Of a stretch of DNA of 64,000 bases, positions 23,359 through 47,173 are shown in pieces (positions within the stretch are counted from its first letter, which is position 1; every line of letters begins with the position of its first letter). The position numbers and the translations under genes were made by a program. The notes under the pieces are model-generated. The model saw only the letters and a program-made list of their open reading frames with translations, ran no database searches and was not told where the DNA came from. This DNA is from Candidatus Phyllobacterium onerii (GTDB lineage Bacteria; Pseudomonadota; Alphaproteobacteria; Rhizobiales; Rhizobiaceae): contig NZ_JAQMHX010000002.1 of the NCBI RefSeq assembly GCF_028331445.1, positions 124,001 to 188,000 on the forward strand, read 5' to 3'.

Positions 23359-23386
23359 ACAATAGATACCGAAGCTTGTGCGAGGC
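23359..23386 (-). promoter_or_regulatory. Flagellar promoter box of the flhA operon
   Basis: On the minus strand GCCTCGCACAAG (23375-23386) is followed after exactly 10 nt by TATTGT (23359-23364). This is one of six matching elements upstream of flagellar operons in this window. Its downstream edge lies 24 bp from the flhA ATG and the core 39 bp. Confidence 0.6.
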
Positions 23387-23413
23387 CAACGTGAGTGCAC
23401 GCGGCTGACCGCG

Positions 23414-23680
23414 TCAGAAACCCTTCTCAATCCGAGAATATGTCAGCAGCGTCAGCGTGTTGATCTGTGAGCCAACGAACGGAGCGGTCAATGCAAGAAC
23501 CGCCAGGATGACAAGGATTTTCGGGACAAAGGTGAGTGTGATTTCCTGTATTTGCGTCAGTGCCTGAAACAGTGCAATGCAGACCCCGGCCAGCATCGCG
23601 GCTCCGACTGCCGGGCCAGAGGCAACGATGACCGTCCAGATAGCCTGATTGATGATGTCGAGTGCATCTGCCTCATTCAT
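23414..23680 (-). CDS. fliQ: Flagellar export gate protein FliQ
   Basis: An 88-residue protein with two membrane helices, standard FliQ length. MNEADALDIINQAIWTVIVA, GPAVGAAMLAGVCIALFQAL, TQIQEITLTFVPKIL and the final QINTLTLLTYSRIEKGF region match the family. The ATG at 23680 overlaps the flgD stop by 8 bp and is preferred to an upstream in-frame codon at 23743. It is last in the flgE operon, so the export-gate genes are divided among operons: fliQ here, fliR and flhA just downstream, fliP in the flgB operon and flhB in the motA operon. Confidence 0.93.
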   Translation of the reverse strand: MNEADALDIINQAIWTVIVASGPAVGAAMLAGVCIALFQALTQIQEITLTFVPKILVILAVLALTAPFVGSQINTLTLLTYSRIEKGF

Positions 23681-24080
23681 TGCCGGCCGAAATGACGATG
23701 CCGGCTGTGATTGGAAGCTGGGCGCCACCCACGAGGGTTGCAATCATGCCGTCGCTGTAGATGCGCACGGACTCGACAACGCCCTTGACGGTACCGTCAG
23801 CGCTGGTGACGGTCCGGCCAATGATACCATCGGCCTGTGACAACGACGAACTCGCAAGCAACTGGTCGAGCTTGGTGTTTGTCTGAACCGCTTGTTCAAC
23901 GCTCGAAAACTGTGCGAGCTGGGAGATTTGCTGCGTCGCATCCATCGGCTCGGTTGGATCCTGGTTTTTCATTTCTGCAACGAGAAGCTTCAGGAAAGCC
24001 TGATAGTCGACGCCAGGTCCGGTAGCCTTGGACGTATCTGTCGTATCGGCCTGTGTTCCTACGGGAGGGATCGTGGTCAT
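23673..24080 (-). CDS. flgD: Hook-cap protein FlgD, short alphaproteobacterial form
   Basis: A 135-residue protein containing the FlgD N-terminal signature FLKLLVAEMKNQDPTEPMDA then TQQISQLAQFSSVEQAVQTN, followed by a short beta segment. The Ig/Tudor C-terminal half of enteric FlgD is absent, a common state in rhizobia. It forms the scaffold at the growing hook tip. Its start overlaps the flbT stop. Confidence 0.92.
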   Translation of the reverse strand: MTTIPPVGTQADTTDTSKATGPGVDYQAFLKLLVAEMKNQDPTEPMDATQQISQLAQFSSVEQAVQTNTKLDQLLASSSLSQADGIIGRTVTSADGTVKGVVESVRIYSDGMIATLVGGAQLPITAGIVISAGNE

Positions 24081-24517
24081 GCGGTTGCCTCCGGCCTGAC
24101 GGCCTGTTGTGTTTGAGAGGAAATGGTCGGTTCTGCTGAGCCGAAAAGAATCTGTGCTTCCAGCGCGTAGAGCAATCGGATCGATTTAAGGGCGTCGAAC
24201 ACCCGTTCGTTGCACATCATCTCGTCGATCAGCTTCAATTCTTTCAGCATCTGCTGGTTTTCGAAGGTTGCGAGGAGTGACGCCAGCATACGCTTGAATG
24301 TGCGGTTGGCCTCTTCCTTCATTGCAGGATTGATCAGCATGATCTGTGCAGCGAAATAGAGCTGCCGTAGCGGCGTTGTCGTCTGATCCGCCTGCATGAC
24401 GTGGCTTTCGAGAAGAAAACTGACATCGTTGATGAATTCAATGGAAACCTTGCGGTCAACGCGTAAGACTGCCCCATTCACGTAAACTTTTTCACCGGCA
24501 CGCAACGATAGTTTCAT
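24077..24517 (-). CDS. flbT: Flagellin synthesis regulator FlbT
   Basis: A 146-residue protein with the FlbT pattern: KLSLRAGEKVYVNGAVLRVD near the N-terminus, VSIEFINDVSFLLESHVMQ, then TTPLRQLYFAAQIMLINPA and a helical C-terminal half. In Caulobacter FlbT binds the 5' untranslated region of flagellin mRNA and couples filament production to hook completion. ATG 24517 overlaps the flaF stop region. The flagellin gene in this window has a dyad in its leader that could be a target. Confidence 0.92.
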   Translation of the reverse strand: MKLSLRAGEKVYVNGAVLRVDRKVSIEFINDVSFLLESHVMQADQTTTPLRQLYFAAQIMLINPAMKEEANRTFKRMLASLLATFENQQMLKELKLIDEMMCNERVFDALKSIRLLYALEAQILFGSAEPTISSQTQQAVRPEATA

Positions 24518-24519
24518 GA

Positions 24520-24864
24520 TCAAAGCCCATCGCGAATGGTCTTGGTGATATCAATAATGCTGTCGTAGTCTCGCGAGGTCTCCTGCCGGATGGCCTCCAG
24601 CTCCCGCAAAATGAACAGGCCGATCGAAATGAGTGATGCCCGCAATTGCTGGGGCAATCCATTGGCAGGACTGCCGAGATCTTCGATCACAATCATCCAC
24701 AGACGCGACGTAAAATACACGGCCTCAACGCCTTTATAGGAATAACCGTTTTCATCGCGAGCCGCTTCCAGCATTATGATCGACTGATCGAACAAGGAGC
24801 GTTCCCGCTCCTTGGCTTCGTCAGCACCATCGTTCATGATGTCGTCGTATCGGGCCTGGTACAT
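24520..24864 (-). CDS. flaF: Flagellin biosynthesis regulator FlaF
   Basis: A 114-residue alpha-helical protein. ERERSLFDQSIIMLEAARDE, the AVYFTSRLWMIVIEDLGSPA segment and LRASLISIGLFILRELEAIR are the FlaF family core. FlaF acts opposite to FlbT in alphaproteobacteria and promotes flagellin synthesis or secretion, probably as a flagellin chaperone. It sits between flgL and flbT as in rhizobial clusters. Confidence 0.92.
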   Translation of the reverse strand: MYQARYDDIMNDGADEAKERERSLFDQSIIMLEAARDENGYSYKGVEAVYFTSRLWMIVIEDLGSPANGLPQQLRASLISIGLFILRELEAIRQETSRDYDSIIDITKTIRDGL

Positions 24865-24909
24865 GTGCTTTTCCGGCTTTTAACGAACGCGGCCATCGCG
24901 TTCGTTGTT

Positions 24910-25959
24910 TTACTTCAGGTAATTGAGCAGGCTCAGGCTCTGGATCTTCACGGTCAAGGCATAGGAAGCATCAATCTGGGTCCTCAAAGCCTCAACCCGG
25001 TTGGCGGCCTCAAACGGGTCCACCGCCTCCAGATCGAGAACCGAGCTATTGAGAACATTGATCTGTACTGTCAGCCGGTCGGTCGCGTCCTTTGTCCGGG
25101 CCTGGGCATTACCGAGAAAGGACTGAGCACCCGCCAGTAAAGTAGAGTTCTGGTTGGTCGTCTCCGCGACCTTGTCGATCACCGTGTCAAATGCTGCCTG
25201 ATTGAGGCCGATATCTCCGAGTTCCGCCATCATTGTGTAGCTCATGGCGAGCTGGCGGAATCCCGCATTGTTGGCGCTAACCGACGTCTCCGCCAGCTCA
25301 GTTGGCGCAATCCGGCTCTTGACGAGCGTATCCGACGCCGAAGACCAATTGGCCGACCAGGCAGCGGAATCGAATTGCGCCGCGAGCGACGTGTCCAGGT
25401 AGGTTTTCATGTCTGCCGCGCTGATATTTGCTACCTGCGGGTCAGTGGTCGGGAAGCCGAAGTAATCCTGAAAGGACTGCAAAACAGCGGCCTTGGCGGG
25501 ATCGCCTGCGGAGCCGTAGTCACCCAGCGGCTTCACGTCGGTGTTCTCTCCTGCGAAAATATACTCACCATTGTAGCTGGTGTTGATCAGGTCGGTGGCG
25601 GTCTGCAACAGACCCTTCGCTTTGTCGACGATAATCGAACGGCCCTCGCTCGCCCCGCGCATCGCCGTCACGTTGCCGAGAAAATCCTGCGATCCCTTGA
25701 TGACATTGCTCAAGGCATCTTGAGAGGCTTTCATTCGTTCAGAGATCAGCCCATTGGTCTGGGTCAAGACTGTCAGCCGATCGTGCTCTTTACGCAGAGA
25801 AAGCGACTGGCCCGTGCGGCTTCCAAGGGTAAGCCCTGTGTCGAAAACAAAACCCGTTGTGGCTTCCTGATTCGCCTTGACCAGTTCTGCCTGCGCCTTG
25901 GCGATGATATTACGTGTCGAGTTGGATAGCATATAGGATGAAACCGACTGGGTCTTCAT
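24910..25959 (-). CDS. flgL: Hook-filament junction protein FlgL
   Basis: A 349-residue flagellin-like protein with the N-terminal coiled-coil helix SNSTRNIIAKAQAELVKANQ then EATTGFVFDTGLTLGSRTGQ, and a C-terminal helix ending DASYALTVKIQSLSLLNYL, which form the D0/D1 shell as in FlgL. It starts 2 bp after the flgK stop. FlgL is the second junction protein, exported with its chaperone. Confidence 0.9.
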   Translation of the reverse strand: MKTQSVSSYMLSNSTRNIIAKAQAELVKANQEATTGFVFDTGLTLGSRTGQSLSLRKEHDRLTVLTQTNGLISERMKASQDALSNVIKGSQDFLGNVTAMRGASEGRSIIVDKAKGLLQTATDLINTSYNGEYIFAGENTDVKPLGDYGSAGDPAKAAVLQSFQDYFGFPTTDPQVANISAADMKTYLDTSLAAQFDSAAWSANWSSASDTLVKSRIAPTELAETSVSANNAGFRQLAMSYTMMAELGDIGLNQAAFDTVIDKVAETTNQNSTLLAGAQSFLGNAQARTKDATDRLTVQINVLNSSVLDLEAVDPFEAANRVEALRTQIDASYALTVKIQSLSLLNYLK

Positions 25960-25961
25960 AT

Positions 25962-27428
25962 CTATCTCACCGCCTGAAAGAGTTCGTTCAACATGGCATC
26001 AACGGCGGAGATGATCTGCGCCGATGCCTTATAGGAATGTTCGAGATCGAGCATCGACGCCATCTCCGTGTCTATATTCACGCCACTGGTGTTGGAAATG
26101 GCGTCTTCGGCACGCGATGCCAGAACGGTGTTGTACTCATTGGTCTGGGTTACAGATTTGCGCTTGGTCTCAAGCGAACTGATCGTGGCCGCAGAAAAAT
26201 CAAGAAGACTTTTCCTATCGCCGGCGGCTGCATCCGGATCGTAGTTGCGAGGCGCCGAGATAGAACCGATGAGATCCTGGAGCCGCGCTGAAAATCCCGC
26301 GGAGCCGTCGGGATTCTGTACGTAATCTGCGCCTGCCGCACCGCCATCGCGCAAGAGAGCTGGGTTGCCGCCTTCGGTCAGGATGAAGGCGGCAGAAACC
26401 CTGATTGTGCCGGCAATGCCCGGAAGAATCGCCGCGTCCGCCGGCATTGTTGGCGCACCTGAATACGTGAACAGACCGGGCACCGTCGGTAGCGTCGCCG
26501 GTGTTTTCTGGTCCTTTTCCGCGAACATGCTGACGAGGCTGCGCGCTATCTCGTCGAGTTGGTTTTGATAGGCCGGCGCCGTGTCGTCGCGCAGTTGCAA
26601 CAAACCGCTGAGGCGGCCAGTACCATAGGGCTGCTGAAATGTTCCATGCGATAGCGGCACGCCATCGACATAGACATCGTTGCCGCCTGTACCCGCGCTG
26701 AATGCGCTGGTCGGTGTGAAGCTGACCGTGCGCGGTGAACCTTCGAAAAGCGTTACACCGGATTCGGCAAACACCACCATGTCGTTATCGCCGCGGACCA
26801 GCGTCGTGATGCCGATCTCGCCTGACATCTGCTTCAGCAGGCCATCGCGCTGGTCGAGATAGTCCGAGACGTCTGTGCCGGAACGCGTGCCGTTGATGAT
26901 CCTGTTGTTGACGGTCTCGAACTGCGCCAGCAGCGCGTTCAGATTCTTGACGGAATCGCCGATGTCGTTGTCGGCATCCTGGCGCAGCTTCTGCGTTTCT
27001 TCCGTGCCCTTGTTCAGCGCGTTGGCGAGTTCTGTCGCCTTGGTGACCGCGGATTCCCCAACTGACGTGTTGCCGGGCTGCGAGGCGTAGAGCTGCAATG
27101 AATCGCGCAAGTCGCCAAGGAGCGAACTTGGTGATCCCGATGCATCATCGGCCGAATAGATCCCGGACAGCCGGTCGAGGCCGGCCTGCAGCGTGTTGGA
27201 CGCGTTATACTGGCTGTTGCTTTCAATAAATTTGGACAGAAGCGCGGAGTCGGCCGAGCGGGTCATGGAAAGATAGGTCGATCCGTTTGGCCCGCTCACG
27301 ACGGAACCAATACGCCGGGTAAAATCAGGATCGTTGGCGCCCGCGATGTTGCGGGAGACCAGCGCTGTCTGTTTCGATACGGTATTGAGCGCACTCTGAG
27401 CAGTAAGGAGCGCCGAAGTTAGTGACAT
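25962..27428 (-). CDS. flgK: Hook-filament junction protein FlgK
   Basis: A 488-residue axial protein. The N-terminus SLTSALLTAQSALNTVSKQT, with ALVSRNIAGANDPDFTRRIG, is the rod/hook N-terminal helix (N.A...DPDF). The C-terminal SGVNIDTEMASMLDLEHSYK then ASAQIISAVDAMLNELF is the matching helix of FlgK. Length agrees with rhizobial FlgK. It lies between flgE and flgL. Confidence 0.94.
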   Translation of the reverse strand: MSLTSALLTAQSALNTVSKQTALVSRNIAGANDPDFTRRIGSVVSGPNGSTYLSMTRSADSALLSKFIESNSQYNASNTLQAGLDRLSGIYSADDASGSPSSLLGDLRDSLQLYASQPGNTSVGESAVTKATELANALNKGTEETQKLRQDADNDIGDSVKNLNALLAQFETVNNRIINGTRSGTDVSDYLDQRDGLLKQMSGEIGITTLVRGDNDMVVFAESGVTLFEGSPRTVSFTPTSAFSAGTGGNDVYVDGVPLSHGTFQQPYGTGRLSGLLQLRDDTAPAYQNQLDEIARSLVSMFAEKDQKTPATLPTVPGLFTYSGAPTMPADAAILPGIAGTIRVSAAFILTEGGNPALLRDGGAAGADYVQNPDGSAGFSARLQDLIGSISAPRNYDPDAAAGDRKSLLDFSAATISSLETKRKSVTQTNEYNTVLASRAEDAISNTSGVNIDTEMASMLDLEHSYKASAQIISAVDAMLNELFQAVR

Positions 27429-27459
27429 GCCCTGTGTCCATTCGCCATTAGGAGTTCAG

Positions 27460-28722
27460 CTATCTTTTCAGATTCACCAGCACGTCCATCAAATCCGCGC
27501 CGGTCTGAAAGACCTTCGAATTTGCGGTATAGCTTCTCTGAGATTCAATCATTTCCGTCAGTTCCTGCGCGATGTCGGCATTCGATTCTTCGAGCGCCCC
27601 GGATGTCAGCGTGCCAAAGCTGCCGCTACCGGCAAAGCCGAGTTGGACGTCGCCGGATTCTGCACTCGGGGAGAACACATTGCCTGTCATGACAAGCAGG
27701 TTGTCAGGACTTGGAACGTCGGCCAGCGCAATCTGGTAAATCGCCCGCTTCGCACCGTTCTTGTAGATGGCGGTTACGGTGCCATCGTCGGCGATGCTGA
27801 CATTTTCGATTGGGCTTGGCGTGTTGCCGTCAATCTTTACCTCGATTGGCGTGTAATCACCTGCCAGCTGTTTGGTGGCGGAAAAGTCGATTTCCAGCGC
27901 CTGTCCGTTTGGTACTGGGACCGAGATCGACTTGTCAGCAGAAGTAAGCTTGCCGGTGACGGCATCAAACGTATAATTTTCCGTCGTCAACGGAGCGGCA
28001 GGCGTATAGGGAAACCCACCGGCGGCCGATGCATTGGCATGATTATAGGCGGCAACTTCCCAGGTATTGTCTGCAGTCTTGGTGAAGTAGAGATCGACGA
28101 CGACGACGTTACCGAGATTGTCAAATGTCTGCACGGATGTCTTGGCCGTATATTGAGCTGACGCAGTGGCATTTGTCGGCGGGCGGTCAGCCGCGGCAAC
28201 AATCGAAGCGCCTGCCGGGAGATTGGCCGTAAATATGCCGGTCTTGCTTGGATCGGCGATCAGGTCATTTTGAGCGATGTTGACCTTTTCGAGCCCCTGA
28301 AAGCCATTGGCAACCGGATTGACGTTGCCATTGACCACCGGATAACCCATCAGATAGTAACCGGCCGAATTGACAAGGTTGCCTTGCGCATCCGGTACGA
28401 ATGAACCGGCGCGCGTCAGATAGGGCGTATCGTCGGCATTGCCGACGATGAAGAAGCCATTGCCTTTCAGCGCAAGGTCGGTCGAAGAAGTCGTAAAGCG
28501 CTGCGAGCCGTCATCCGAAATATGGTGGCGAATGACCGTTTCGACACCACCGGAATTATAAGCCCCGCCAGAACTTGGCAACACCAGCGATGCGAACTGC
28601 GTGCTGGCGCGCTTGTAGCCGGTCGTGCTGGAGTTGGCGATGTTGTCCGCCACGGTCGACAGCCTGTTGGCCTGAGCATTCATGCCCGACACACCGGTTC
28701 GCATCATTCCATAGAGGCTCAT
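27460..28722 (-). CDS. flgE: Flagellar hook protein FlgE
   Basis: A 420-residue protein with the flagellar rod N-terminal motif GMNAQANRLSTVADNIANSS then TTGYKRASTQFASLV, central hook domains, and the C-terminal SNADIAQELTEMIESQRSYT then ANSKVFQTGADLMDVLVNL. AAGGAGACGG precedes the ATG. It leads the flgE-flgK-flgL-flaF-flbT-flgD-fliQ operon; the flagellar promoter box at 28756-28783 lies about 50 bp upstream of the start. Confidence 0.95.
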   Translation of the reverse strand: MSLYGMMRTGVSGMNAQANRLSTVADNIANSSTTGYKRASTQFASLVLPSSGGAYNSGGVETVIRHHISDDGSQRFTTSSTDLALKGNGFFIVGNADDTPYLTRAGSFVPDAQGNLVNSAGYYLMGYPVVNGNVNPVANGFQGLEKVNIAQNDLIADPSKTGIFTANLPAGASIVAAADRPPTNATASAQYTAKTSVQTFDNLGNVVVVDLYFTKTADNTWEVAAYNHANASAAGGFPYTPAAPLTTENYTFDAVTGKLTSADKSISVPVPNGQALEIDFSATKQLAGDYTPIEVKIDGNTPSPIENVSIADDGTVTAIYKNGAKRAIYQIALADVPSPDNLLVMTGNVFSPSAESGDVQLGFAGSGSFGTLTSGALEESNADIAQELTEMIESQRSYTANSKVFQTGADLMDVLVNLKR

Positions 28723-28755
28723 TTCCGTCTCCTTGCACCGTGATTCCGTTCAGAA

Positions 28756-28783
28756 TCGTTAGCGCGCAATACTTGCGCGAAGC
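28756..28783 (-). promoter_or_regulatory. Flagellar promoter box of the flgE operon
   Basis: On the minus strand GCTTCGCGCAAG (28772-28783) is followed after 10 nt by TAACGA (28756-28761). It matches the fliF copy at 11 of 12 box positions. Core edge to flgE ATG is 49 bp. Confidence 0.62.
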
Positions 28784-28861
28784 TGACGTTCAGATGGTGT
28801 CACCGGGGAATACTTGAATTTCGACTTGACCGCCGATGGCGGCCAAAATTACTCTGGCAAG

Positions 28862-29533
28862 TCAGTCCAGATTGATGCAGTAGCCGAGAAAGCGCTTGGA
28901 ATCGATCGGATCATAACCAAGTTGCTCACGCAGCTTCTTGCGAAGCTTGCTGATATGACTCTCAACGACACTTTCCTCGACATCGCTGTCGAAAATGCCG
29001 TAGATCGCGCTGAATATCTGCGCCTTGTTGAGCCGGCGTCCGCGATTGGCGATCAAATATTCAAGTATGCGCCGTTCCCGCCGCGGCAAGGAAAAATCAA
29101 GCCCGTTGACCTGCGGATCGCGGCCGTCAGAAAATACCCGGATCGGACCGACCTGCGTTCCCGCATCGCCATTGCCATAGCGGCGGCGAATGGCATTGAT
29201 CCGCGCCAGTATCTCCCGCACATGCATCGGCTTGCGAACCACATCGTCGACACCCGCCTGAAAAAGTTCCAGCGTATGTTCCAATGACTGCGTTTCATTG
29301 ACAGCGATGACCGGCGCTGAACAGCGCTCGCGAATTTTTTGTGGAAACTGGCTGCGATTGACACATTCTCCTATGAGAAATGCCTCGACCGCCATAATGT
29401 CGTTCTTCTGAACGGTGGCGACCCAATCGCCGAAATCGTCCGGAGTAAAACCTGTTGTTGTTATGCCCTCCCGGGCGAACCACGCCGAATACCCACTCGT
29501 CACCAGACTTCGTTCGTCGACGACTACAATCAC
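28862..29533 (-). CDS. ftcR: Flagellar master regulator FtcR, OmpR-type with atypical receiver
   Basis: A 223-residue response-regulator-like protein. The receiver-like N-terminus [20 protein letters not shown] matches FtcR of Brucella and Rem of Sinorhizobium. The C-terminal winged helix (about residues 125-222) contains [20 protein letters not shown] and [20 protein letters not shown]. Where a canonical receiver has a phosphorylated Asp after its third strand, this one reads [12 protein letters not shown], so phosphorylation there is unlikely. I place the start at GTG 29533, with GGAAGG 7 nt upstream and the conserved VIVVVDE start. In Brucella FtcR is reported to act at the fliF promoter. 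It is a single gene between the transglycosylase and flgE. Confidence 0.9.
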
Positions 29534-29607
29534 TGCCCCACCTTCCGAATCATTTATTTTGCCCCAAGCAACACACAACTAGCGGGGTCGATGACTCGGC
29601 GACAATT

Positions 29608-29635
29608 CCCAATATATTGTACCTAATTTATTGGG
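29608..29635. promoter_or_regulatory. Inverted repeat upstream of ftcR
   Basis: CCCAATA (29608-29614) and TATTGGG (29629-29635) form a perfect 7-bp dyad with a 14-bp AT-rich centre, 74-102 bp upstream of the ftcR start. It is in a gene-free AT-rich 239-bp gap (29534-29772) and could be the operator of a regulator acting on ftcR, for example the VjbR protein encoded at 52451-53242. No binding evidence. Confidence 0.4.
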
Positions 29636-29772
29636 AGACCTAAATAATTCGGATTAGATGCATTCTCGGGGAAGCTGGCAGGTCCGGCGCGGGCAGGATC
29701 ATTACCAATTTGAACTTTACAAAATATGACAGTGAAGACAAATTCACGTTTTATTACCAAGTATTAACACAA

Positions 29773-33950: not shown

Positions 33951-34605
33951 CGGCGGTATCTCTCAACGCGTCGATGAGGCGGCCAAGCCGCGTCTCGACC
34001 ACTGCATCATCCAGTTTCATCGACAATTCCGATTGGCCAGATTCCCGGAAGGTGCAACGCATCTGCTCGATCTCCGGTCGCATACGAAGCACGTCGAGAA
34101 GATGGGATGGACCGGAAATTTCCATGCTGACAGCGGCGAATTCCTTGGTCATCCGTTCCACCTCATGAGCAAATGCCTCGACGGCGCGTTCACGCAAGCG
34201 CTCTTCGACCAAAGGCGTGAGAACGGCAGCGAGCGACCCCGAAAGATCCGATGCAATTGCGCCCAGCCCGTCGCCGATCTGCTCCGCCATGCGCGTGCCG
34301 GTTTGTTGCATGAAGAGCACTTCCGCGGCGGCCAGCTGATCCTGGAACTCCCTCTCAAGCCGGATTTTCTCGGCCTCGAACAGCACCGCGGCCTCCGCCT
34401 GACCGGATTCGCGCCCCGCAACAAATGCCTCCTTGATCTTCAACTCGTAATCGATGAGTTCAACAACATCCTCCGATGGCTCCTCGATCTTTGCCAATAA
34501 GTCGGCTCGTTCCCTGTTCACGGCCGCAAAGACGGTGACGCGCTCCGCTGGCACGTGCTTCGGCGTGAAATCAGTCAGCACACTGGCGACAGAGCGCGCG
34601 ACCAT
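33940..34605 (-). CDS. FliH-like export regulator
   Basis: A 221-residue hydrophilic protein. A predicted long helix with acidic and Ala-rich repeats (LIDYELKIKEAFVAGRESGQ then AEAAVLFEAEKIRLEREFQD) and a C-terminal region with ELSMKLDDAVVETRLGRLID recall FliH, the regulator of the FliI ATPase. The ATG overlaps the fliF stop (TGATG) and its end overlaps motB by 11 bp. Position between fliF and motB agrees with the uncharacterised or FliH-like gene of Brucella and rhizobia. Sequence support is moderate. Confidence 0.6.
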   Translation of the reverse strand: MVARSVASVLTDFTPKHVPAERVTVFAAVNRERADLLAKIEEPSEDVVELIDYELKIKEAFVAGRESGQAEAAVLFEAEKIRLEREFQDQLAAAEVLFMQQTGTRMAEQIGDGLGAIASDLSGSLAAVLTPLVEERLRERAVEAFAHEVERMTKEFAAVSMEISGPSHLLDVLRMRPEIEQMRCTFRESGQSELSMKLDDAVVETRLGRLIDALRDTADEH

Positions 34606-36251
34606 CAGGCTGCCTCGTGAACCCATTGTTTCAGGATAGCCGCGACCCGTTCTTCATCCATGTCGATCATCTGCTCCAGACGATTTTGCGCAGGCACGCG
34701 CATGCGTCGTCTGAGTTCGCTCAGATCATCATAAGGCAGGCTATGTTCCGCACGAACCTGCGCAACGACCGGAACATTAGACGCGGGGGCCAAACCTGGA
34801 ACCGGAAGGTTCGAACTCGCGGCGAGTTGCAGAGCCTCTGGCGGCTTGTTCATTTCACGCATCAGGGGGCGGACTCCGAACCAGAGCACGAGCCCCACCG
34901 CGGCGACAAGCGCGGCGGCGTTGATGAAACTGCCGGCTTGACGGAAGATCATCTCGGCCACCGGCGTTGAAGCAGGCGCCAGCTGTTCGTCTGAAGCCTC
35001 CATGAAATTGACCGCAGTCACATTAATCACGTCGCCGCGCTTCTGGTCGAGACCCGCCGCCGTTGCGACAAGTTCGGTGATTTTTGCGATCTGCTGCTCG
35101 AGGAATTTGTCGGGAGCCGGCGTCACACCGGCCGTTGCCAGCAGGCGCGCCTGATCGATGACGACTGCGATCGAGAGCCGCTTGATCTGATAACTGTCGC
35201 TGGTCGTCGAGACTGTCTTCGAGTTCAACTCGTAATTGGTCAGTTCTTCTCGCTTGTCAGTCTTTTCTGTAGAACTATCACCATTCTTGCTGGCGATTTC
35301 TTCCTGCGGAATGTTCTGTTCGACACCCGTTGCATTGTCGCTGGTCGAATTCTTCGAATCGCCGCTCTCGCGCACCACCCGCACCGAACGTTCGACGCGC
35401 GATTCCGGATCAAATACCGTCTCGTTGGTCTGGCGGCGATCCGTGTCGAGCGCGACCTGAACGCTGGTCTGGAAATGGCCAACGCCAAGATAGGGCGCAA
35501 GGGCCTTGCGGATGCTCTCATCCACCGACGCGGAAACGTTCTGTTCCAGCGTCGCCGACATCACGGCACCCGCATTGGTGCCGTCATCCTTCGAGGCAAG
35601 CAGACGGCCATTGGTATCGAGAATGGTGACTTCGGCAGCTGTGAGCTGCGGCACCGCAGCAGCAACGAGCTGGCGGATCGACTGTGCTGATTCGATGGCG
35701 AAGTCGCCTTCGGTACGAATGACAACCGAGGCAGATGGCGCCTGATCGCCACGACGGAAGCTCCCCTTTTCCGGCAAGACGATATGAACGCGAGCGGCCT
35801 TGATACCGCGAATTGCCTGAATGGTACGGGAAATTTCACCCTCGAGCGCTCGAACCCGGGTGATCTCCTGCATGAACGATGTGAGGCCGAGCGAGCCCAT
35901 ATTGTCGAACAGCTCGTAACCGGCATTGTTGCTGGTGGGAAGACCTTTTTCCGCTAGGTACATGCGTGCCTGATCGGCTTTGCCAAAGGCCACCAGAATG
36001 GAGGTGCCGTCCGATTTCACATCGAAGGGAATGCCGGCTTCGCCGAGCGCCATGCCCATGCGGTTAACATCGTCGCGGCTGAGACCGACATACAGCGTCT
36101 CGTATTGCGGCCGGTTGAGGTAAAGGCTTGATACAAGAATGGCGCTGAACAGCGTGATGCCAATGATCGCAAGAGCAAGGAGCCGCCTTGCGCCAAGCTT
36201 CTGCATCGCCGTGCCGAGCTGCGCAAATGTCTGTCTTATGTTCTTTTCCAT
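34605..36251 (-). CDS. fliF: MS-ring protein FliF
   Basis: A 548-residue protein with two membrane helices (about residues 21-43 and 430-450) flanking periplasmic ring-building domains. LYVGLSRDDVNRMGMALGEA and LARTIQAI-type segments (ALEGEISRTIQAIRGIKAAR VHIVLPE) are the FliF/YscJ core. The C-terminal tail DMDEERVAAILKQWVHEAA is the FliG-binding helix. GGTGGGA precedes the ATG. It leads the fliF-fliH-motB-motC-fliK-transglycosylase operon, with the shared promoter box 43 bp upstream, and the homologous promoter is the reported FtcR target in Brucella. Confidence 0.95.
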   Translation of the reverse strand: MEKNIRQTFAQLGTAMQKLGARRLLALAIIGITLFSAILVSSLYLNRPQYETLYVGLSRDDVNRMGMALGEAGIPFDVKSDGTSILVAFGKADQARMYLAEKGLPTSNNAGYELFDNMGSLGLTSFMQEITRVRALEGEISRTIQAIRGIKAARVHIVLPEKGSFRRGDQAPSASVVIRTEGDFAIESAQSIRQLVAAAVPQLTAAEVTILDTNGRLLASKDDGTNAGAVMSATLEQNVSASVDESIRKALAPYLGVGHFQTSVQVALDTDRRQTNETVFDPESRVERSVRVVRESGDSKNSTSDNATGVEQNIPQEEIASKNGDSSTEKTDKREELTNYELNSKTVSTTSDSYQIKRLSIAVVIDQARLLATAGVTPAPDKFLEQQIAKITELVATAAGLDQKRGDVINVTAVNFMEASDEQLAPASTPVAEMIFRQAGSFINAAALVAAVGLVLWFGVRPLMREMNKPPEALQLAASSNLPVPGLAPASNVPVVAQVRAEHSLPYDDLSELRRRMRVPAQNRLEQMIDMDEERVAAILKQWVHEAA

Positions 36252-36278
36252 CAATTCCCACCACCGTCGCGTGATGGA

Positions 36279-36306
36279 ACCATAGAGCGCGAAGCTTGCG
36301 CGAAGT
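36279..36306 (-). promoter_or_regulatory. Flagellar promoter box of the fliF operon
   Basis: On the minus strand ACTTCGCGCAAG (36295-36306) is followed after 10 nt by TATGGT (36279-36284). Core edge to ATG is 43 bp. The box sits where FtcR binding is expected from Brucella work. Confidence 0.62.
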
Positions 36307-36334
36307 TAGAGCCTCGTGTCGGAACATCGTTGCA

Positions 36335-36393: not shown

Positions 36394-37176
36394 TCAGCCG
36401 CGGAACAGCGACAGGATGCTCTGATTGCTGGAGTTGGCAATCGAGAGAGCCTGGATACCCAGCTGCTGCTGAACCTGAAGAGCCGACAAACGTGCGGATT
36501 CTGCATTCATGTCGGCGTCGACGAGCTGGCCAACGCCGCGATCGATTGCGTCCATCAGATTGCCGGTGAACGTCTGCTGTGTATCAATGCGAGTCTTGGC
36601 AGAGCCAAGGCCGGCGGCAGCAGCCTTCATGGCGTTGACGGCTGTTTCAACGGTTGAGGACGATGTTGCAGCGGTCAGCGCGGCTTCAAGATCATAGGCC
36701 GCGACGCTCATCGTTGTTACGCCCGTTCCAGACGTGTAGCCGGTCACGATGTTCTGTGCCGCGCCACCAGTCTCCAACAGGTTTACACCCTGGAATGTTG
36801 CGCCCTTCGCCATCTCGACGATCTGGGCCTTCATTTCAGCGATGTCAGCGTCGATAATCGTGCCGTCCGTACCAGGGGTTTCCTTGGCAACGTATTTCGC
36901 CTGGATCTTGCTGGCGAGGTCGATGGCGCTGGTCAATGCGGTGTAAGCAGTGTCCACGATCGAAGCGCCGAGACCCAGACCGTCCTTGACGGCCGAAAGA
37001 GCGGAATTCTGCGTGCGCATGCCGGTCGCGATTGACCAGTAAGCGGCATTGTCGGAAGCGGTAGAAACGCGCTGGCCGGTGGCGATGCGATCCTGCGTGG
37101 TCGCAAGGTTCTTGTTGGTTGTGTTGAGTGTCTGCAGCGCAGTCATTGCTGATGCGTTTGTAAGAATGCTGGTCAT
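36394..37176 (-). CDS. Flagellin (short form)
   Basis: A 260-residue flagellin with only the conserved shell. The N-terminal MTALQTLNTTNKNLATTQDR then IATGQRVSTASDNAAYWSIA, and the C-terminal GVGQLVDADMNAESARLSAL then QVQQQLGIQALSIANSSNQS, are the D0/D1 helices. The middle is too short for D2/D3 outer domains. Brucella FliC is of similar size. It is the only flagellin gene in this window. It has its own terminator and leader, lacks the operon promoter box, and is expected to be a late gene controlled by FlaF/FlbT. Confidence 0.95.
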   Translation of the reverse strand: MTSILTNASAMTALQTLNTTNKNLATTQDRIATGQRVSTASDNAAYWSIATGMRTQNSALSAVKDGLGLGASIVDTAYTALTSAIDLASKIQAKYVAKETPGTDGTIIDADIAEMKAQIVEMAKGATFQGVNLLETGGAAQNIVTGYTSGTGVTTMSVAAYDLEAALTAATSSSTVETAVNAMKAAAAGLGSAKTRIDTQQTFTGNLMDAIDRGVGQLVDADMNAESARLSALQVQQQLGIQALSIANSSNQSILSLFRG

Positions 37177-38567: not shown

Positions 38568-38575
38568 TGTCAATC

Positions 38576-41539: not shown

Positions 41540-41547
41540 AATTCTCC

Positions 41548-42336
41548 TTAGCGCAGGTTCTTTGAAACGACTTGAGCCATTTCGTCCGCAGCCTGAATCA
41601 CCTTCGAATTCATCTCGTAGGCGCGCTGCGCCGTGATCAGATCAGTGATTTCCTTGACCGGATCGACGTTGGAATTCTCCAGATAGGCCTGTTTCAACGT
41701 CGCAAATCCGGGATCCCCCGGAACACCGACAACCGCATCACCTGAAGCATCTGTCTGCTTGTAGAGATTGTCGCCAAGCGGCTCCAACCCGGCTTCGTTG
41801 GCAAAGTTTGCGATCGTCAGCTGGCCGAGATCGACAAGTGCCGTCTGATCGGCCATTTTTGCAAACACCTGGCCCGTATCGGTAATTTTGACCTCGATCG
41901 CATCCGTGGGGACAATGATGTTCGGTTCGACCAGATTTCCATCGAGTGTCACCAGTTGGCCGGTACTGTTCGTGTTGAATGTGCCGGCCCGGCTATACAA
42001 CGTCTCGCCAGCCGGGTTCTGGATCTGGAACCATCCGCGACCGACCAGCGCCACATCGAACGGATTACCGGTTTGGTTGAGCCCGCCCTGAATATGCAGA
42101 TTGCGCACCGCCGATGTCTGAACACCCAGCCCGACCATCGCCCCTTCCGGAATAATGCTTTGGTTTGCCGCATTGGGTACGCCTGCCGTCCGTTCCGCCT
42201 GATATAGCAGATCCGAAAATTCCGCCTTGGCGCGCTTGAAGCCCGTTGTGTTAATGTTGGCGATGTTATTGGCAATCACTTCCAGATTGAGCTGCTGGGC
42301 ATTCATGCCGGTTGCAGCGATAGTAAGCGCTTTCAT
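41548..42336 (-). CDS. flgG: Distal rod protein FlgG
   Basis: A 262-residue axial protein, family-standard length. The N-terminal [20 protein letters not shown] then [20 protein letters not shown] and the C-terminal [20 protein letters not shown] then [19 protein letters not shown] are the FlgG signatures. It extends the rod to the L/P rings. It is between fliE and flgA. Confidence 0.96.
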
Positions 42337-42345
42337 CGTTGATCC

Positions 42346-42663
42346 TTAGATAGGCATGCGGCTGATTTCGAGATAGGCCTGGACGATCTTGTCGCGGATG
42401 GCGATGGCCGTTTGCAGCGACTGTTCCGCATCCATGACCGCATTCACGACGTCGCGGGTCGGCACGTCGCCGGTCATGCTCTTCATCGAAACCGCTTCGG
42501 CACCTTCAAGCTTATGACTGACCGATCCTGCCAGTTGTGACAGAACATTGCCGAATGAAGACTGGCCAGTGGTTGCGGCGGGGGACGCTGCGCCTGGGGC
42601 TACGCTCTCCGCCAAATTCGAGAGGGCGTTACGCGTGGAAACACTGAGAAGTTGGTCTATCAT
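42346..42663 (-). CDS. fliE: MS-ring/rod adaptor FliE
   Basis: A 105-residue protein of standard FliE length. [20 protein letters not shown] and the helical [20 protein letters not shown] then [14 protein letters not shown] tail are family hallmarks. It joins the MS ring and FliP/R gate to the rod. Its start overlaps the flgC stop by 1 bp. Confidence 0.92.
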
Positions 42664-43082
42664 CAGGAATTCCTCAAAAGGTCGACAGTCATGGCAATCA
42701 GTTCGCGTGCTTGCTTGACGACTTGGAGATTGGCTTCATAGGAGCGATTGGCTTCACGCATGTCCGCCATTTCAACGACCATGCTGACATTGGGCAATTT
42801 CACATAGCCATTGGCATCGGCTGCCGGATGGCTCGGGTCATATTCTTCGGTAAAGGCAGAGGTATCCTTACCGACCTCGGCAATGCGTACTGTTTCGACG
42901 CCGGTGGCGCGATCAAGCTCTGTCGCAAAGGAGACCGTCTTGCGTCGATAAGGGTCGCTGCCTGCGGTCTTGCCCGTCGACTGTGCATTGGCCAGGTTTT
43001 CCGAAACAATGCGCAGGCGCGTCGATTGGGCGGAAAGACCGGATGCGGCGACTTTGAGGGCGGCTTGCAATGGATCGGACAT
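42663..43082 (-). CDS. flgC: Proximal rod protein FlgC
   Basis: A 139-residue rod protein. The N-terminal [20 protein letters not shown] then [20 protein letters not shown] and the C-terminal [20 protein letters not shown] then [19 protein letters not shown] match FlgC. It lies between flgB and fliE. Confidence 0.95.
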
Positions 43083-43083
43083 C

Positions 43084-43464
43084 TCAGCTCTTTACCGCTG
43101 ACAGCATCATGCGATGAAACGCTTTCACGATGCTGGTGTTGAGCGAGAACTGACGGTTGATCTCGCCGGATTTCACCATTTCCTCCTCGAGGCTGACCGT
43201 ATTTTTGGAATGATTCTGTTCGGTCACCGCATCCTTGCGCAGCGCTGTCGCGCTGATGCCGGACGCATCGATCTCAAGATGTTTGGGATTGGTCGCAGCC
43301 ATGGTCAGCTGCGTTTGTTCCAGCACATCCTTGAACGGCTCGACATCGCGCGCCTTGAAGCCCGGCGTATTCGCATTGGCCACATTTCCGGAGATCGCCG
43401 CCTGCCTCACCGAGAGCCATTCGGCCTGACGTGATGCCAGCTCGAACAGATGGATGCCCTGCAT
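43084..43464 (-). CDS. flgB: Proximal rod protein FlgB
   Basis: A 126-residue rod protein. [20 protein letters not shown] then [20 protein letters not shown], and the late [20 protein letters not shown] then [17 protein letters not shown], match FlgB. It leads the ten-gene flgB-flgC-fliE-flgG-flgA-flgI-motE-flgH-fliL-fliP operon. GCGAGGAAAGAT precedes the ATG; the shared promoter box lies 53 bp upstream. Confidence 0.95.
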
Positions 43465-43501
43465 ATCTTTCCTCGCACGTCTGACACGGTTAACTGGCCT
43501 T

Positions 43502-43529
43502 AACCTATGCTTTCAAACTTGCGTGAGAC
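43502..43529 (-). promoter_or_regulatory. Flagellar promoter box of the flgB operon
   Basis: On the minus strand GTCTCACGCAAG (43518-43529) is followed after 10 nt by TAGGTT (43502-43507). Core edge to the flgB ATG is 53 bp, the longest of the six. Confidence 0.58.
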
Positions 43530-43573
43530 TTGCGGCCCGATGCGCCAGGAACATATGTTCAAAACGACGTTCA

Positions 43574-44146
43574 CTAGTTGGTGCGGCTGATCACATCGCC
43601 GTCAGATGTCTTGATCTGCCAGCTGTCCTTGCCATCACCGCGCTCGATAGCGACGAGCTTGCTTCCATCCGGGAGGGTTGCGCCTTTTTCGACGAACCAG
43701 TAGCCGGTATCGTCTTCGATCATAACCAGGCCGCCAACGATCTCGCGTAACAGAAAAACCGGTTTGCCGGGAAACGGCTGCTTGCTGGCCTCTTCTATGC
43801 CGGACACCCGGTTTTCCTTCAGATCCGCGGTCGTGGCGGTCGTCATGGGGTCAAATTCCTCGCTCGGTTTGCCCGGCGAGGCCCCGTTCCTGCCATGGGT
43901 CTCACGTACGACCTTCTGATTGGTCCGGTTGAGCGGATCATTGACTTTTTGGCCCGAGGACATGGGCGTCGATCGCGCATCAAGAATATCGTAGTACATG
44001 ACGAAGGGCAGTACGAAACTACCGACCGCCAGCGCGAACCCGGCACTCTTCAAATAGCCGTCAAAGCGTTTATCGCGCGGACGAATTAGTCTGGGCTCTG
44101 CCGCTGTCGCTGCCGATTTCGCGAGCGGTGCCTGTTGTTTCGTCAT
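43574..44146 (-). CDS. Single-pass membrane protein of the flagellar cluster, function unknown
   Basis: A 190-residue protein with a basic cytoplasmic N-terminus (about 33 residues), one membrane helix (SAGFALAVGSFVLPFVMYYD), a Pro/Lys/Thr-rich linker and a C-terminal beta-rich domain (about 130-188, FLLREIVGGLVMIEDDTGYW then FVEKGATLPDGSKLVAIERG). That last domain resembles small periplasmic docking domains of the PilP/GspC kind, by look only. Its ATG overlaps the fliI stop, so it belongs to the DUF1217-flgF-fliI operon. Not recognised as a named flagellar protein. Confidence 0.65.
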   Translation of the reverse strand: MTKQQAPLAKSAATAAEPRLIRPRDKRFDGYLKSAGFALAVGSFVLPFVMYYDILDARSTPMSSGQKVNDPLNRTNQKVVRETHGRNGASPGKPSEEFDPMTTATTADLKENRVSGIEEASKQPFPGKPVFLLREIVGGLVMIEDDTGYWFVEKGATLPDGSKLVAIERGDGKDSWQIKTSDGDVISRTN

Positions 44147-45519
44147 GATGGCTCCTTTGGTCGAAGCGATGCCGCAAGGTCGTTGTAAGGGTCTTGCGAG
44201 AGTGGCGACGTCGGCGTTTGCTGCATGGCTTCATAGATGAGAGGGACAAGATTGACCGCCTGATCGATGAGAAGGTCGCTACCCGCCTGATACGCGCCGA
44301 TCATGCGCAGATCGCGCGTTTCTTCATAGCGCGCGACGAGGCCGCGCAGACTGGTCACCAATTTCTGTTGTTCTGTTGTCCAGTTATGCTGTGCCAGACG
44401 AGAAATGGAACCGAGAATATCGACCGCCGGGAACCGTCCCCGCGCCGCGATGCCACGATCAAGAACGATATGGCCGTCAAGCGTGCCACGAATGGCATCA
44501 GAGATAGGATCATTGTGGTCGTCGCCGTCGACAAGAACCGCATAGATACCGGTAATGGTGCCGCCGCTTTCGAGACCAGGTCCAGCGCGTTCGAGCAGGC
44601 GCGGCAGCTGACTGAAAACGCTTGGTGGATAACCGCGCGATACCGGTGGTTCGCCCGCTGCGATGGCGATTTCCCGCGCCGCATGAGCAAAGCGCGTGAT
44701 GGAATCAACGACCAGCAGAACATTCTCGCCGCGATCACGGAAATATTCTGCAATCGCGGTTGCCGTATTGGGTGCAAGCCGGCGCATCATCGGGCTTTCG
44801 TCGCCCGTGGCGACGACGGCGATGGTCTTATCGAGCTTCCCAGCCATCGTGTCTTCAAGCATGTCCCGCACTTCGCGCCCGCGCTCGCCTGTCAGAGCCA
44901 GCACGACCGTATCGAAGTCGGTGGCTTTCGTCATCATGGCGAGCAGCGTGGATTTGCCAACGCCAGACCCGGCGAAAACGCCCATGCGCTGGCCGAAGCA
45001 CATCGGCATGAAGACGTCGACGACATTGACGCCGGTGCGCAGTCCCCTTTCCACCCGGCCGCGATTCATCGCCGACGGTGCCGGGCAATCCACAGGCTTC
45101 GGATCGGTTCCCGCTGATAATGGTCCCTTATTGTCGAGTGGATATCCCAGAGCATTGATTACCCTGCCCTTCCAGTCGGGTGCAGGCGCAATACGCAACG
45201 GTCCTTCCGGGAAGACCGGTGTTCCAAGCGATGGCACGATGCGGTCATCGAACGGCTTGATCAGCACTCTTGTCTGTTCGAGCCGGACAACCTCCGCCGG
45301 GTGGAGCTGGTTGTCCGCGCGGATTGCCACGATGTCGCCGAGTTGAACCTTGTCCGATATTCCACGAACCCCGATGGCGGAGCGCGACACCTCATTGACA
45401 TAGCCGCCGACAACAACAGGATTTCGCTCCTGGACAATCTGCGACACGATCCTTGCCAGCGTCTCCAGGCTGCCCGTCCGTTGGCGTATCATAGGCAAGG
45501 CTGCTGCAAGTGACTGCAT
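44143..45519 (-). CDS. fliI: Flagellum-specific ATPase FliI
   Basis: A 458-residue F1-beta-like ATPase. Walker A FAGSGVGKSTLLAMM near residue 160, VVLALTGERGREVRDMLED with the catalytic Glu, Walker B ENVLLVVDSITRFAHAAREI, and PPVSRGYPPSVFSQLPRLLE with RAG identify FliI. It energises unfolding and release of export substrates with FliH and FliJ. ATG 45519 is preferred over a TTG six bases upstream. It lies between flgF and the unknown membrane protein. Confidence 0.96.
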   Translation of the reverse strand: MQSLAAALPMIRQRTGSLETLARIVSQIVQERNPVVVGGYVNEVSRSAIGVRGISDKVQLGDIVAIRADNQLHPAEVVRLEQTRVLIKPFDDRIVPSLGTPVFPEGPLRIAPAPDWKGRVINALGYPLDNKGPLSAGTDPKPVDCPAPSAMNRGRVERGLRTGVNVVDVFMPMCFGQRMGVFAGSGVGKSTLLAMMTKATDFDTVVLALTGERGREVRDMLEDTMAGKLDKTIAVVATGDESPMMRRLAPNTATAIAEYFRDRGENVLLVVDSITRFAHAAREIAIAAGEPPVSRGYPPSVFSQLPRLLERAGPGLESGGTITGIYAVLVDGDDHNDPISDAIRGTLDGHIVLDRGIAARGRFPAVDILGSISRLAQHNWTTEQQKLVTSLRGLVARYEETRDLRMIGAYQAGSDLLIDQAVNLVPLIYEAMQQTPTSPLSQDPYNDLAASLRPKEPS

Positions 45520-45532
45520 GGTCAAACGGCGA

Positions 45533-46255
45533 TCACGTCTTCGATCCGAGCGTCTTTATGGCTTCGGAGAACGTATTCTCACTGCCGCGAAGCAATGCGT
45601 CAACGCGTTCGAAAGCGCGTGATACGCTCATCAACCGCGTCATTTCGCTGATTGCGTCTACGTTCGACCCTTCGATCGAACCCTGAATTACACCGGCATT
45701 GGGATTGTCGATAGCAGGCTGCGCCGCCAGGCTCGGAATGACTGAGGAATTGTCGAAATAGGTCAGCTTGGCGTTCGGGCTAATGGTAAAAAGACCGATC
45801 GCGCCCAGTTGCTTGCCGTTTTGATAGACTGCTCCATCCGAAGAAATATCAGGCGGTCCACCATTTGGATCGATCGTCAAAGGCTGCCCACCCGCATCGA
45901 GAATCGGATAGCCCTTCACGGAGAGGAGTTCGCCCGTGGTCGACATCTGCATACGACCATCGCGCGTATAGACCTGACCGGCCGGCGACTGGAGGGAGAA
46001 CCAAACGTCGCCTTTTGCAGCCACATCGAGTGGATTGCCTGTCTGGGTGATCGGACCGGCTTCGGTCTTGATGTAGCTCTCACCGGCCGTAACGAAACTT
46101 GAGTTTTCCGCGGCTTTCGACACCATTGCCTCGAACTTCATGCCTGTGGCGCGAAAGCCAGGCGTCGACATGTTGGCGACATTGTGAGCAAGCGCATCGA
46201 GCCGGCGCTCCAGCGAGATTTGCGCCGAAAGCCCAACATAGATTGAATTTTCCAT
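45533..46255 (-). CDS. flgF: Proximal rod protein FlgF
   Basis: A 240-residue axial protein. ENSIYVGLSAQISLERRLDA then LAHNVANMSTPGFRATGMKF at the N-terminus, and SNVDAISEMTRLMSVSRAFE then RVDALLRGSENTFSEAIKTL at the C-terminus, match FlgF. The ATG at 46255 overlaps the upstream DUF1217 gene's stop. Separated from flgG, as in rhizobia. Confidence 0.93.
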   Translation of the reverse strand: MENSIYVGLSAQISLERRLDALAHNVANMSTPGFRATGMKFEAMVSKAAENSSFVTAGESYIKTEAGPITQTGNPLDVAAKGDVWFSLQSPAGQVYTRDGRMQMSTTGELLSVKGYPILDAGGQPLTIDPNGGPPDISSDGAVYQNGKQLGAIGLFTISPNAKLTYFDNSSVIPSLAAQPAIDNPNAGVIQGSIEGSNVDAISEMTRLMSVSRAFERVDALLRGSENTFSEAIKTLGSKT

Positions 46256-47037
46256 CAACGACCACCCAGCTTGAAGGACTGCAGGGTCGCAAGAATGCTT
46301 GCCGAGATCCCGATCGTAGAGGTTGCTCCGAGCAGCAAGGATGGTGCGCTCGCCGGTGTGGAGGGATTCTTCATCTCATACATGGCAGTAAACCGCGTTA
46401 ACAGCTTGTTGAGTTTGGCGGGGTCCTTGAGATCCTTCAGATTAAGTTTGTCCTCGACCAGTTCGGCCTGTCGGTCGATGTCGAGATTGGACATCTGTGC
46501 GGGCATGTTGAAGGTTGCCTGGAAGACCTGCAGCAGCGCCTTGTCACCAAGTATCTCGAAAGCATTGGTAATGGTTGGCGCCTTGCGGGCGAAATACAGC
46601 GCCAGCCGCACGCCTTCATTCTGCTGGCCCGTCTCGACCTCCAGGGTCTGGCGCACATATTTGTCGACGATGGGCTGCTTTACCTGAGGTTGGGCAGTTG
46701 TCTTGTCGCCAAGCTTGACAAAATTGAACGTCGTTGCGAGTTCCTTGTAACGGGGGTCCGTCAGCTTGTTGGCGAAACTGTCGGGATTGTCGATGCCTTC
46801 GGTGAGTACCTTGCGGATGAAGGCTTTGGCATAGGCCATATCTTCAAGCCCGAACGCCTTCAATGCATAATTGTACAGCTTCGTGTCTTTCATGAAATCG
46901 TCGATGGATTTCACATTGCCTATATTTTTCAGATAGTAATCGCTCTCGCGCTGAACGATCGGCTCCTTGGAGACGCGGGCGAGCGAACGCGGCAAGTCGG
47001 CGGCAATCAGCCTATAGCCCGTCATCGTATTGATCAT
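46255..47037 (-). CDS. DUF1217 family flagellar protein
   Basis: A 260-residue soluble, mostly helical protein. ESDYYLKNIGNVKSIDDFMK, DTKLYNYALKAFGLEDMAYA then KAFIRKVLTEGIDNPDSFAN, and the C-terminal LKDPAKLNKLLTRFTAMYEM motif are those of the DUF1217 family, found in alphaproteobacterial flagellar clusters and of unknown function. It leads the DUF1217-flgF-fliI operon and is divergent from motA; a promoter box lies 46 bp before its ATG. A conserved gene placed first before flgF suggests a structural or export-related role. Confidence 0.82.
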   Translation of the reverse strand: MINTMTGYRLIAADLPRSLARVSKEPIVQRESDYYLKNIGNVKSIDDFMKDTKLYNYALKAFGLEDMAYAKAFIRKVLTEGIDNPDSFANKLTDPRYKELATTFNFVKLGDKTTAQPQVKQPIVDKYVRQTLEVETGQQNEGVRLALYFARKAPTITNAFEILGDKALLQVFQATFNMPAQMSNLDIDRQAELVEDKLNLKDLKDPAKLNKLLTRFTAMYEMKNPSTPASAPSLLLGATSTIGISASILATLQSFKLGGR

Positions 47038-47067
47038 GATGCGCCTTTCCTGAAAACGTTTGGCTCA

Positions 47068-47095
47068 TGTGTGTCAAATCAAGCTTGCCTGAAGC
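47068..47095 (-). promoter_or_regulatory. Flagellar promoter box of the DUF1217-flgF-fliI operon
   Basis: On the minus strand GCTTCAGGCAAG (47084-47095) lies 46 bp before the ATG. The hexamer 10 nt downstream is CACACA, the weakest -10 of the six. A second box for motA lies 50 bp away in the opposite orientation. Confidence 0.5.
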
Positions 47096-47145
47096 TGGCG
47101 GCACTGGATCCGCGCGCGCCACTGGGCGAACGCCCGTCGCTGCAA

Positions 47146-47173
47146 GGTTCACGCAAGCCGACGCTGTTAGCGC
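47146..47173 (+). promoter_or_regulatory. Flagellar promoter box of the motA operon
   Basis: GGTTCACGCAAG (47146-47157) is followed after 10 nt by TAGCGC (47168-47173). Core edge to the motA TTG start is 44 bp. It is the only plus-strand copy and points towards motA, as expected for a promoter element. Confidence 0.58.

Follow-up and report, generated by a model that had tools for sequence, protein, structure and literature searches.

The stretch of DNA analysed here, 64,000 nucleotides from contig NZ_JAQMHX010000002.1 of Candidatus Phyllobacterium onerii (positions 124,001 to 188,000; hereafter the window), sits in a 6.0-Mb genome. It holds a cluster of flagellar genes and, within it, the gene for the regulator FtcR. 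The original prediction was that six flagellar operons of this cluster share one promoter element, a 12-nucleotide box containing CAAG, as a candidate site for FtcR. All six 12-mers were found in their predicted places and in gene orientation, and domain searches of the open reading frames (ORFs) in the window place flagellar genes on the flanks of every box. The elements, each with the hexamer that follows, and the genes behind them are listed here; the R1 and profile scores belong to models introduced below.

23359..23389 (-), element at flhA: TTGGCCTCGCACAAG-N10-TATTGT; box 23375-23386; R1 22.4 bits; profile 29.6
28756..28786 (-), element at flgE: TCAGCTTCGCGCAAG-N10-TAACGA; box 28772-28783; R1 22.5 bits; profile 27.2
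36279..36309 (-), element at fliF: CTAACTTCGCGCAAGCTTCGCGCTC-TATGGT; box 36295-36306; R1 27.0 bits; profile 34.4
43502..43532 (-), element at flgB: CAAGTCTCACGCAAG-N10-TAGGTT; box 43518-43529; R1 15.8 bits; exact match to the full pattern
47068..47098 (-), element at the DUF1217-flgF-fliI operon: CCAGCTTCAGGCAAG-N10-CACACA, a deviant −10; box 47084-47095; R1 8.9 bits; profile 11.5
47143..47173 (+), element at motA: CAAGGTTCACGCAAG-N10-TAGCGC; box 47146-47157; R1 11.1 bits; exact match to the full pattern

21245..23335 (-), flhA (FHIPEP), first gene behind its box
27460..28722 (-), flgE, predicted from gene order and spacing to head a flgE-flgK-(flgL)-flaF-flbT-flgD operon
28862..29578 (-), ftcR; real start probably near 29533, judging from the N-termini of relatives' proteins
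34605..36254 (-), fliF, predicted head of a fliF-orf228-motB-motC-fliK operon
43084..43464 (-), flgB, predicted head of a flgB-flgC-fliE-flgG-flgA-flgI-orf177-flgH-fliL-fliP operon
46255..47037 (-), DUF1217 gene, predicted head of a DUF1217-flgF-fliI operon
47202..48083 (+), motA, predicted head of an operon with fliM, fliG and flhB

The distance from the 3′ end of the box to the start codon, taken from the coordinates, is 39 bp at flhA, 49 bp at flgE, 40 bp at fliF (which has a TTG start), 53 bp at flgB, 46 bp at DUF1217 and 44 bp at motA, in agreement with the range of 39–53 bp first proposed. The hexamers 10 nucleotides past CAAG are likewise those first reported. They had been described as a TANNNT-like −10 in five of six cases; TA is present in five, but the strict form TANNNT occurs in only three (flhA, fliF and flgB), flgE (TAACGA) and motA (TAGCGC) retaining TA alone and DUF1217 having CACACA. 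All six operons do share the element, but a seventh, weaker site, at flgJ, had been overlooked.

Anatomy of the element

The 12-mer is real but too narrow a description. The box is built as a direct repeat of 11 bp, C[A/C]AG-N7-CAAG, behind which CTTCG often stands. In an average of six promoter classes, self-similarity at a lag of 11 has a p value of 0.0005 (2000 column permutations), and in the same test lags 4–10 and 12–16 all give p >0.18, so that lag 11 alone is significant. The units follow one another as C[A/C]AG-CTTCRCG, CAAG-CTTCG and the −10, with the second CTTCG strong at fliF and flhA and weak at the other promoters. At the window fliF, 9 of the 11 positions are the same in both 11-mers; the remaining six sites have 4 to 7 in common.

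The spacing to the −10 was followed in relatives. An alignment of 19 FtcR proteins was used to fetch 80 named loci and their flanks (at most 10 kb per side) from Phyllobacterium, Brucella/Ochrobactrum, Bartonella, Mesorhizobium, Sinorhizobium/Ensifer, Methylocapsa and others. Among upstream sites that score 8.5 and hold CAAG, a choice in which the −10 played no part, TA lies exactly 10 nucleotides past CAAG in 156 of 167 (flgE 69/75, fliF 47/48, flhA 40/44); at any other offset from 0 to 19, no gene has more than 5. Read from the sequence, the repeat would span about −37 to −16 with the −10 at about −12, and hence would replace the −35 element. Both features of an operator of the OmpR/PhoB type were found: 11-bp direct repeats, and overlap with the −35 position at a fixed distance from a sigma-70-type −10.

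An element at the −35 position, at constant distance from a −10, would also suit a special flagellar sigma factor that takes the box as its −35 and TANNNT as its −10, with FtcR acting elsewhere. Direct repeats of 11 bp, however, are unusual for −35 elements. FliA, moreover, is not above the family cut-off in the genome (TIGR02479; best match 107.4 bits versus 189.6), the two best matches, ORFs of 676 and 339 amino acids, probably being the housekeeping and heat-shock sigma factors, and a loose sigma-54 pattern (−24/−12 GG-GC) is unmatched on the gene strand in the approximately 140 bp around each of the seven boxes. With FliA and sigma-54 as the sigma factors covered, a special sigma promoter is very unlikely.

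Recovery of the element and its conservation in relatives

Model R1 is a sequence-only model built from the flgE, fliF and flhA promoters of relatives, with no window sequence in its training and with flgB, motA and DUF1217 promoters outside the training set. Its training drew on 40 of the 80 loci; once 11 gene/locus pairs had been left out because they lacked CAAG or scored below 8.5, 91 promoters remained, which means that R1 was built from boxed promoters only. In the window the six boxes are the top 6 of its 28 matches, the next match reaching 7.7 bits. Over the 6.0-Mb genome the top 4 of 10 matches are fliF, flgE, flhA and flgB, on the basis of scores for 150 of the 1812 first-look candidates. 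R1 alone is weak for motA (E 0.024) and DUF1217 (E 0.13), neither of which is among the 10 whole-genome matches. The other six matches were considered as non-flagellar regulon members and rejected; they fall within ORFs of at least 100 amino acids. With at most one mismatch, the full pattern CMAGNYTCRCRCAAG-N10-TA has 4 matches in the genome, 3 of them flagellar (flgB, motA and flgE), and a reversed control has 0; the fliF, flhA and DUF1217 sites diverge too far to be found in this way.

The loci of relatives yielded 76 flgE, 52 fliF and 54 flhA upstream regions. Scored with a profile made from the six 12-mers of the window, 74, 47 and 46 of these, respectively, reach 11 (a few of the flhA passes, in L047, L084 and L117, are not at the expected place), as do 3.2% of 3000 pieces of 310 bp drawn at random from these loci, among which there may be true sites. 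Ten loci account for the 15 misses: Propylenella, Lichenibacterium, Methylocapsa, Consotaella, Antarcticirhabdus and five metagenome-assembled genomes, a Mesorhizobium among them. For the remaining promoters 31 genomes were searched and 30 gave matches; with a profile naive to these genes, though the same genomes contributed other promoters to the training set, scores exceed 8 upstream of flgB in 29/30, motA in 28/30 and DUF1217 in 17/26 relatives.

A scan of 1.63 Mb (the loci and the window), restricted to CAAG-bearing positions and using a profile whose training set came from some of these loci, gave 209 positions that reach 13. Of these, 170 are at flgE, fliF or flhA, 5 at other query genes and 34 elsewhere; none is labelled as lying inside the 22 query genes, of which motC is not one. 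Ten of the 25 'elsewhere' sites listed are a Sinorhizobium site that lies within motC in the one locus checked. The pattern C[AC]A-N8-CAAG was also scanned over 774 kb from 18 FtcR-bearing genomes besides that of the window: 42 of 165 matches fall in the 300 bp that precede a flagellar or ftcR start, compared with 4 of 131 for the reversed pattern (Fisher 2e-8).

One result bears on whether the boxes could be a chance likeness of GC-rich promoters. With up to 3 mismatches allowed, the loose 12-mer does not exceed chance in the window (153 matches against 161 expected), so that the case has to be built on position and conservation. Chance resemblance is nonetheless refuted by held-out recovery, conservation, fixed spacing and the lag-11 periodicity, and we give it next to no weight. 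As judged from the sequence comparisons, the box appears to be a real operator, most likely of FtcR/Rem, that is widely conserved, with some gaps, in the FtcR-bearing members of the order.

The seventh element lies upstream of a flgJ-like gene:

20034..20064 (-), element upstream of flgJ: CAAGCCTCCCGTAAG-N10-TAGGGT; box 20050-20061
19420..20031 (-), flgJ-like gene (rod-binding domain, PF10135)

By profile this site scores 12.7 and ranks 7 in the window, below a non-flagellar site at 56610 and above DUF1217; by R1 it is weak (5.1 bits, rank 12 of 28). Phyllobacterium and Brucella-clade relatives have an element of the same form ahead of flgJ, and Sinorhizobium flgJ has a weaker version that ends in TAAG, with GATAGT. 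The −10 would leave no leader before the ATG at 20031, which makes the in-frame ATG at 20016 the likelier start. The 56610 site (-) is antisense within a cyclase-like ORF and was not taken as a regulon member; a further window site, at 11457 (+), precedes an ORF without any Pfam match. Beyond the flagellar cluster the window encodes a DUF3095 protein (53549-54709) and a protein with an adenylate/guanylate-cyclase domain (56426-57835).

In Sinorhizobium, fliF and motB are not neighbors; there a strong box stands about 300 bp ahead of orf228-motB, and fliF carries its own (scores 30–35, six genomes). In L076 (Sinorhizobium kostiense), a site resembling the box, with TA correctly spaced, is found near 7524, in the 3′ part of motC and upstream of fliK. 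Among the sites listed, motC-type sites occur in ten Sinorhizobium/Ensifer loci, one of which was checked. They may represent an internal promoter or a coding constraint, and we do not claim them as boxes.

As first noted, the box is absent upstream of ftcR and of the flagellin gene at 36394-37176, where the best profile scores within 400 bp in the window are −15.8 and −17.2. According to the available part of PMC6180460, CtrA directly activates the flagellin genes of Sinorhizobium meliloti; such activation would fit the absence of the box upstream of the window flagellin. Several other FtcR-bearing genomes do carry a box approximately 140–200 bp upstream of this flagellin gene, fliC2; the window does not. 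A second flagellin-like protein, encoded at 24910-25959 directly after flgK, is probably FlgL and not a flagellin.

Association with FtcR and weighing of the alternatives

Across 121 genomes of the order, an FtcR orthologue is present in 24 at 2.7e-49 or better, the next best genome standing at 2.6e-21. At E 1e-3 or better, R1 matches 16 of the 24 genomes with FtcR and 1 of the 97 without it (Fisher 3e-13, a value that ignores kinship). FliF, in turn, splits into two types. Nineteen genomes have a match of at least 375 bits, and all of them have FtcR (A-type); 69 matches are at or below 258 bits (B-type), and 51 of these B-type genes were scanned, 18 being left out. The box scores above 0 upstream of 13 of the 19 A-type fliF genes, the window included, and upstream of none of the 51 scanned B-type genes, whose maximum is −1.0. 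The two genomes with both types carry the box at the FtcR type only (10.6 versus −14.9 in G035; 21.4 versus −14.6 in G119). G116, also among the 24, has only a B-type FliF, which is boxless (−15.5, counted in the 51), and four FtcR-bearing genomes (G017, G068, G073 and G120) have no FliF match.

Between an activator, with FtcR as the natural candidate, and a special sigma factor, the two choices initially offered, the repeat, the fixed −10, the association with FtcR-type flagella and the sigma tests favor the activator. It is highly probable that the box is the operator of FtcR (Rem in Sinorhizobium), with two 11-bp repeats in place of a −35, read with the housekeeping sigma factor and serving to switch on at least seven operons. 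Direct binding of FtcR, activation, operon extents and transcription start points are what we infer from these comparisons.

A number of observations pull the other way. Eight of the 24 FtcR-bearing genomes lack an R1 match at 1e-3, and one genome without FtcR has one; that genome, G108, has neither an FtcR orthologue nor a FliF match, yet its R1 match stands at E 6.6e-4. Relaxing the threshold to E 0.05 gives matches in 22/24 genomes with FtcR but also in 24/97 without. R1 was trained on loci that adjoin ftcR, so the association with FtcR is partly built in, kinship is uncorrected, and score thresholds were chosen once scores were known; the B-type fliF control is less affected by these points. 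Six of the 19 FtcR-type fliF upstream regions do not score above 0. DUF1217 has no canonical −10, and 9 of 26 relatives' DUF1217 upstream regions are not above 8. Finally, the FtcR motif given for Brucella melitensis in the available part of PMC9456535, and confirmed there by electrophoretic mobility shift assay (EMSA) at ftcR and betI, is TGTGGGCA.

That motif, which was derived from chromatin immunoprecipitation sequencing (ChIP-seq) with EMSA (PMC9456535, as far as available), would fit a different arrangement, in which FtcR binds TGTGGGCA as published and the box is bound by another regulator tied to this flagellar type, be it LuxR-type, CtrA or other. A LuxR-type gene with an autoinducer domain does lie at 52451-53341. 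In eight Brucella-clade relatives, however, a set that does not include B. melitensis 16M, exact TGTGGGCA occurs in 0/8 upstream regions at each of flgE, fliF and flhA, whereas the box occurs in 8/8 at each; one mismatch allowed, the motif turns up in 1, 1 and 0 of 8, which does not exceed the shuffled rate. Nor does it occur exactly in any of the 76 flgE, 52 fliF and 54 flhA upstream regions of all loci, or with one mismatch in the 300 bp upstream of the window ftcR and fliF. Operators of LuxR-type regulators tend to be palindromic and CtrA has the consensus TTAA-N7-TTAA, both unlike the box. VisN is below its cut-off in the genome, yet the box is present. Taken together, we consider binding of the box by another regulator improbable. 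In Sinorhizobium VisN activates rem; the best VisN match here (38.9 bits, cut-off 250) is the same LuxR-type gene, which lies beside the cluster.

FtcR as the candidate activator

FtcR has a DNA-binding domain of the OmpR/PhoB type (Trans_reg_C), and its gene lies within the flagellar cluster. The window protein is identical over 226 residues to FtcR of Phyllobacterium bourgognense, and identity across the 80 loci, which include Sinorhizobium, Mesorhizobium, Brucella and Phyllobacterium, is 60–100%; full-length similarity separates an FtcR/Rem group from other response regulators. The phosphoacceptor Asp of the receiver is replaced: the Asp of RegX3 (LLD) aligns with Glu in the window FtcR (VEAF), and by eye this position is mostly E or Q across 19 FtcR rows, with D in two. 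The account of the Rem receiver in the available part of PMC9812332 agrees with a degenerate FtcR receiver. Since the receiver is degenerate, the signal is probably the amount of FtcR and not phosphorylation, in line with what that source says of Rem. A covariation between a residue of the recognition helix (Ser/Gly in ..VVE[S/G]HISKLRK..) and position 6 of the box was considered and dropped by eye, as Gly-type genomes have TTCGCG and TTCACG boxes alike.

As far as the available parts of the literature go, Rem activates class II flagellar genes (PMC8429497, PMC9812332), and flagellar gene expression is lower without the FtcR-like ActR (PMC8639532). In the mechanism that we propose, FtcR subunits would sit head to tail, as a dimer, on the two 11-bp repeats C[A/C]AG-N7-CAAG. 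The bound repeats would stand in for the −35 element, much as with PhoB, and FtcR would recruit polymerase carrying the housekeeping sigma factor to the −10, with its TA exactly 10 nucleotides past CAAG. At least seven flagellar operons could in this way be turned on together.

The closest formal likeness is to the Pho box of PhoB, which also consists of 11-bp direct repeats that replace the −35 and are read by an activator of the OmpR/PhoB family, as FtcR would do here. The pho box of Escherichia coli phoA ends about 10 nucleotides before the −10, and tandem repeats are the form of operator used by OmpR/PhoB activators. The element differs from the Pho box in being C[A/C]AG-N7-CAAG with CTTCRCG between, not CTGTCAT, and FtcR differs from PhoB in its degenerate receiver. 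CtrA, too, is an OmpR-type regulator whose boxes overlap the −35 at alphaproteobacterial flagellar promoters, but its consensus, TTAA-N7-TTAA, is unlike our element. The regulons of Rem in S. meliloti and FtcR in Brucella, as described in the available parts of PMC8429497, PMC9812332 and PMC9456535, involve the same regulator family and the same kind of flagellar operons as targets, although the Brucella motif in print differs from the box. LafR, which governs the lateral flagella of Bradyrhizobium, is a Rem homologue in control of one of two flagellar systems (PMC8429497, available part). G035, with 8.0 Mb, two FliF types and the box at the FtcR type only, may resemble Bradyrhizobium in this respect.

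The sections available from PMC4560400, PMC3616915, PMC6180460, PMC9812332, PMC12632262, PMC9731437 and PMC7617929 contain no Rem operator sequence, and no printed LafR operator was found in the literature covered. A printed description of the element was likewise not found in the literature on Rem (also together with MirA), FtcR and LafR and on flagellar regulons with direct repeats, as judged from the titles listed and with the main 2006 Rem paper not covered. We lean towards the view that the element, an 11-bp repeat with a fixed −10 retained among FtcR-bearing members of the order, is a so far unprinted operator of the FtcR/Rem/LafR family that marks the regulator's own flagellar system where a genome has two; TGTGGGCA, the one FtcR motif found in print and one with which the box disagrees, would then not be the flagellar site of FtcR. 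A defined operator would allow the FtcR/Rem regulon to be read from sequence across the order, would predict transcription starts, and would tell which of two flagellar systems FtcR/Rem controls. It would also provide a simple DNA test of how transcription is activated by a response regulator that lacks a working phosphorylation site.

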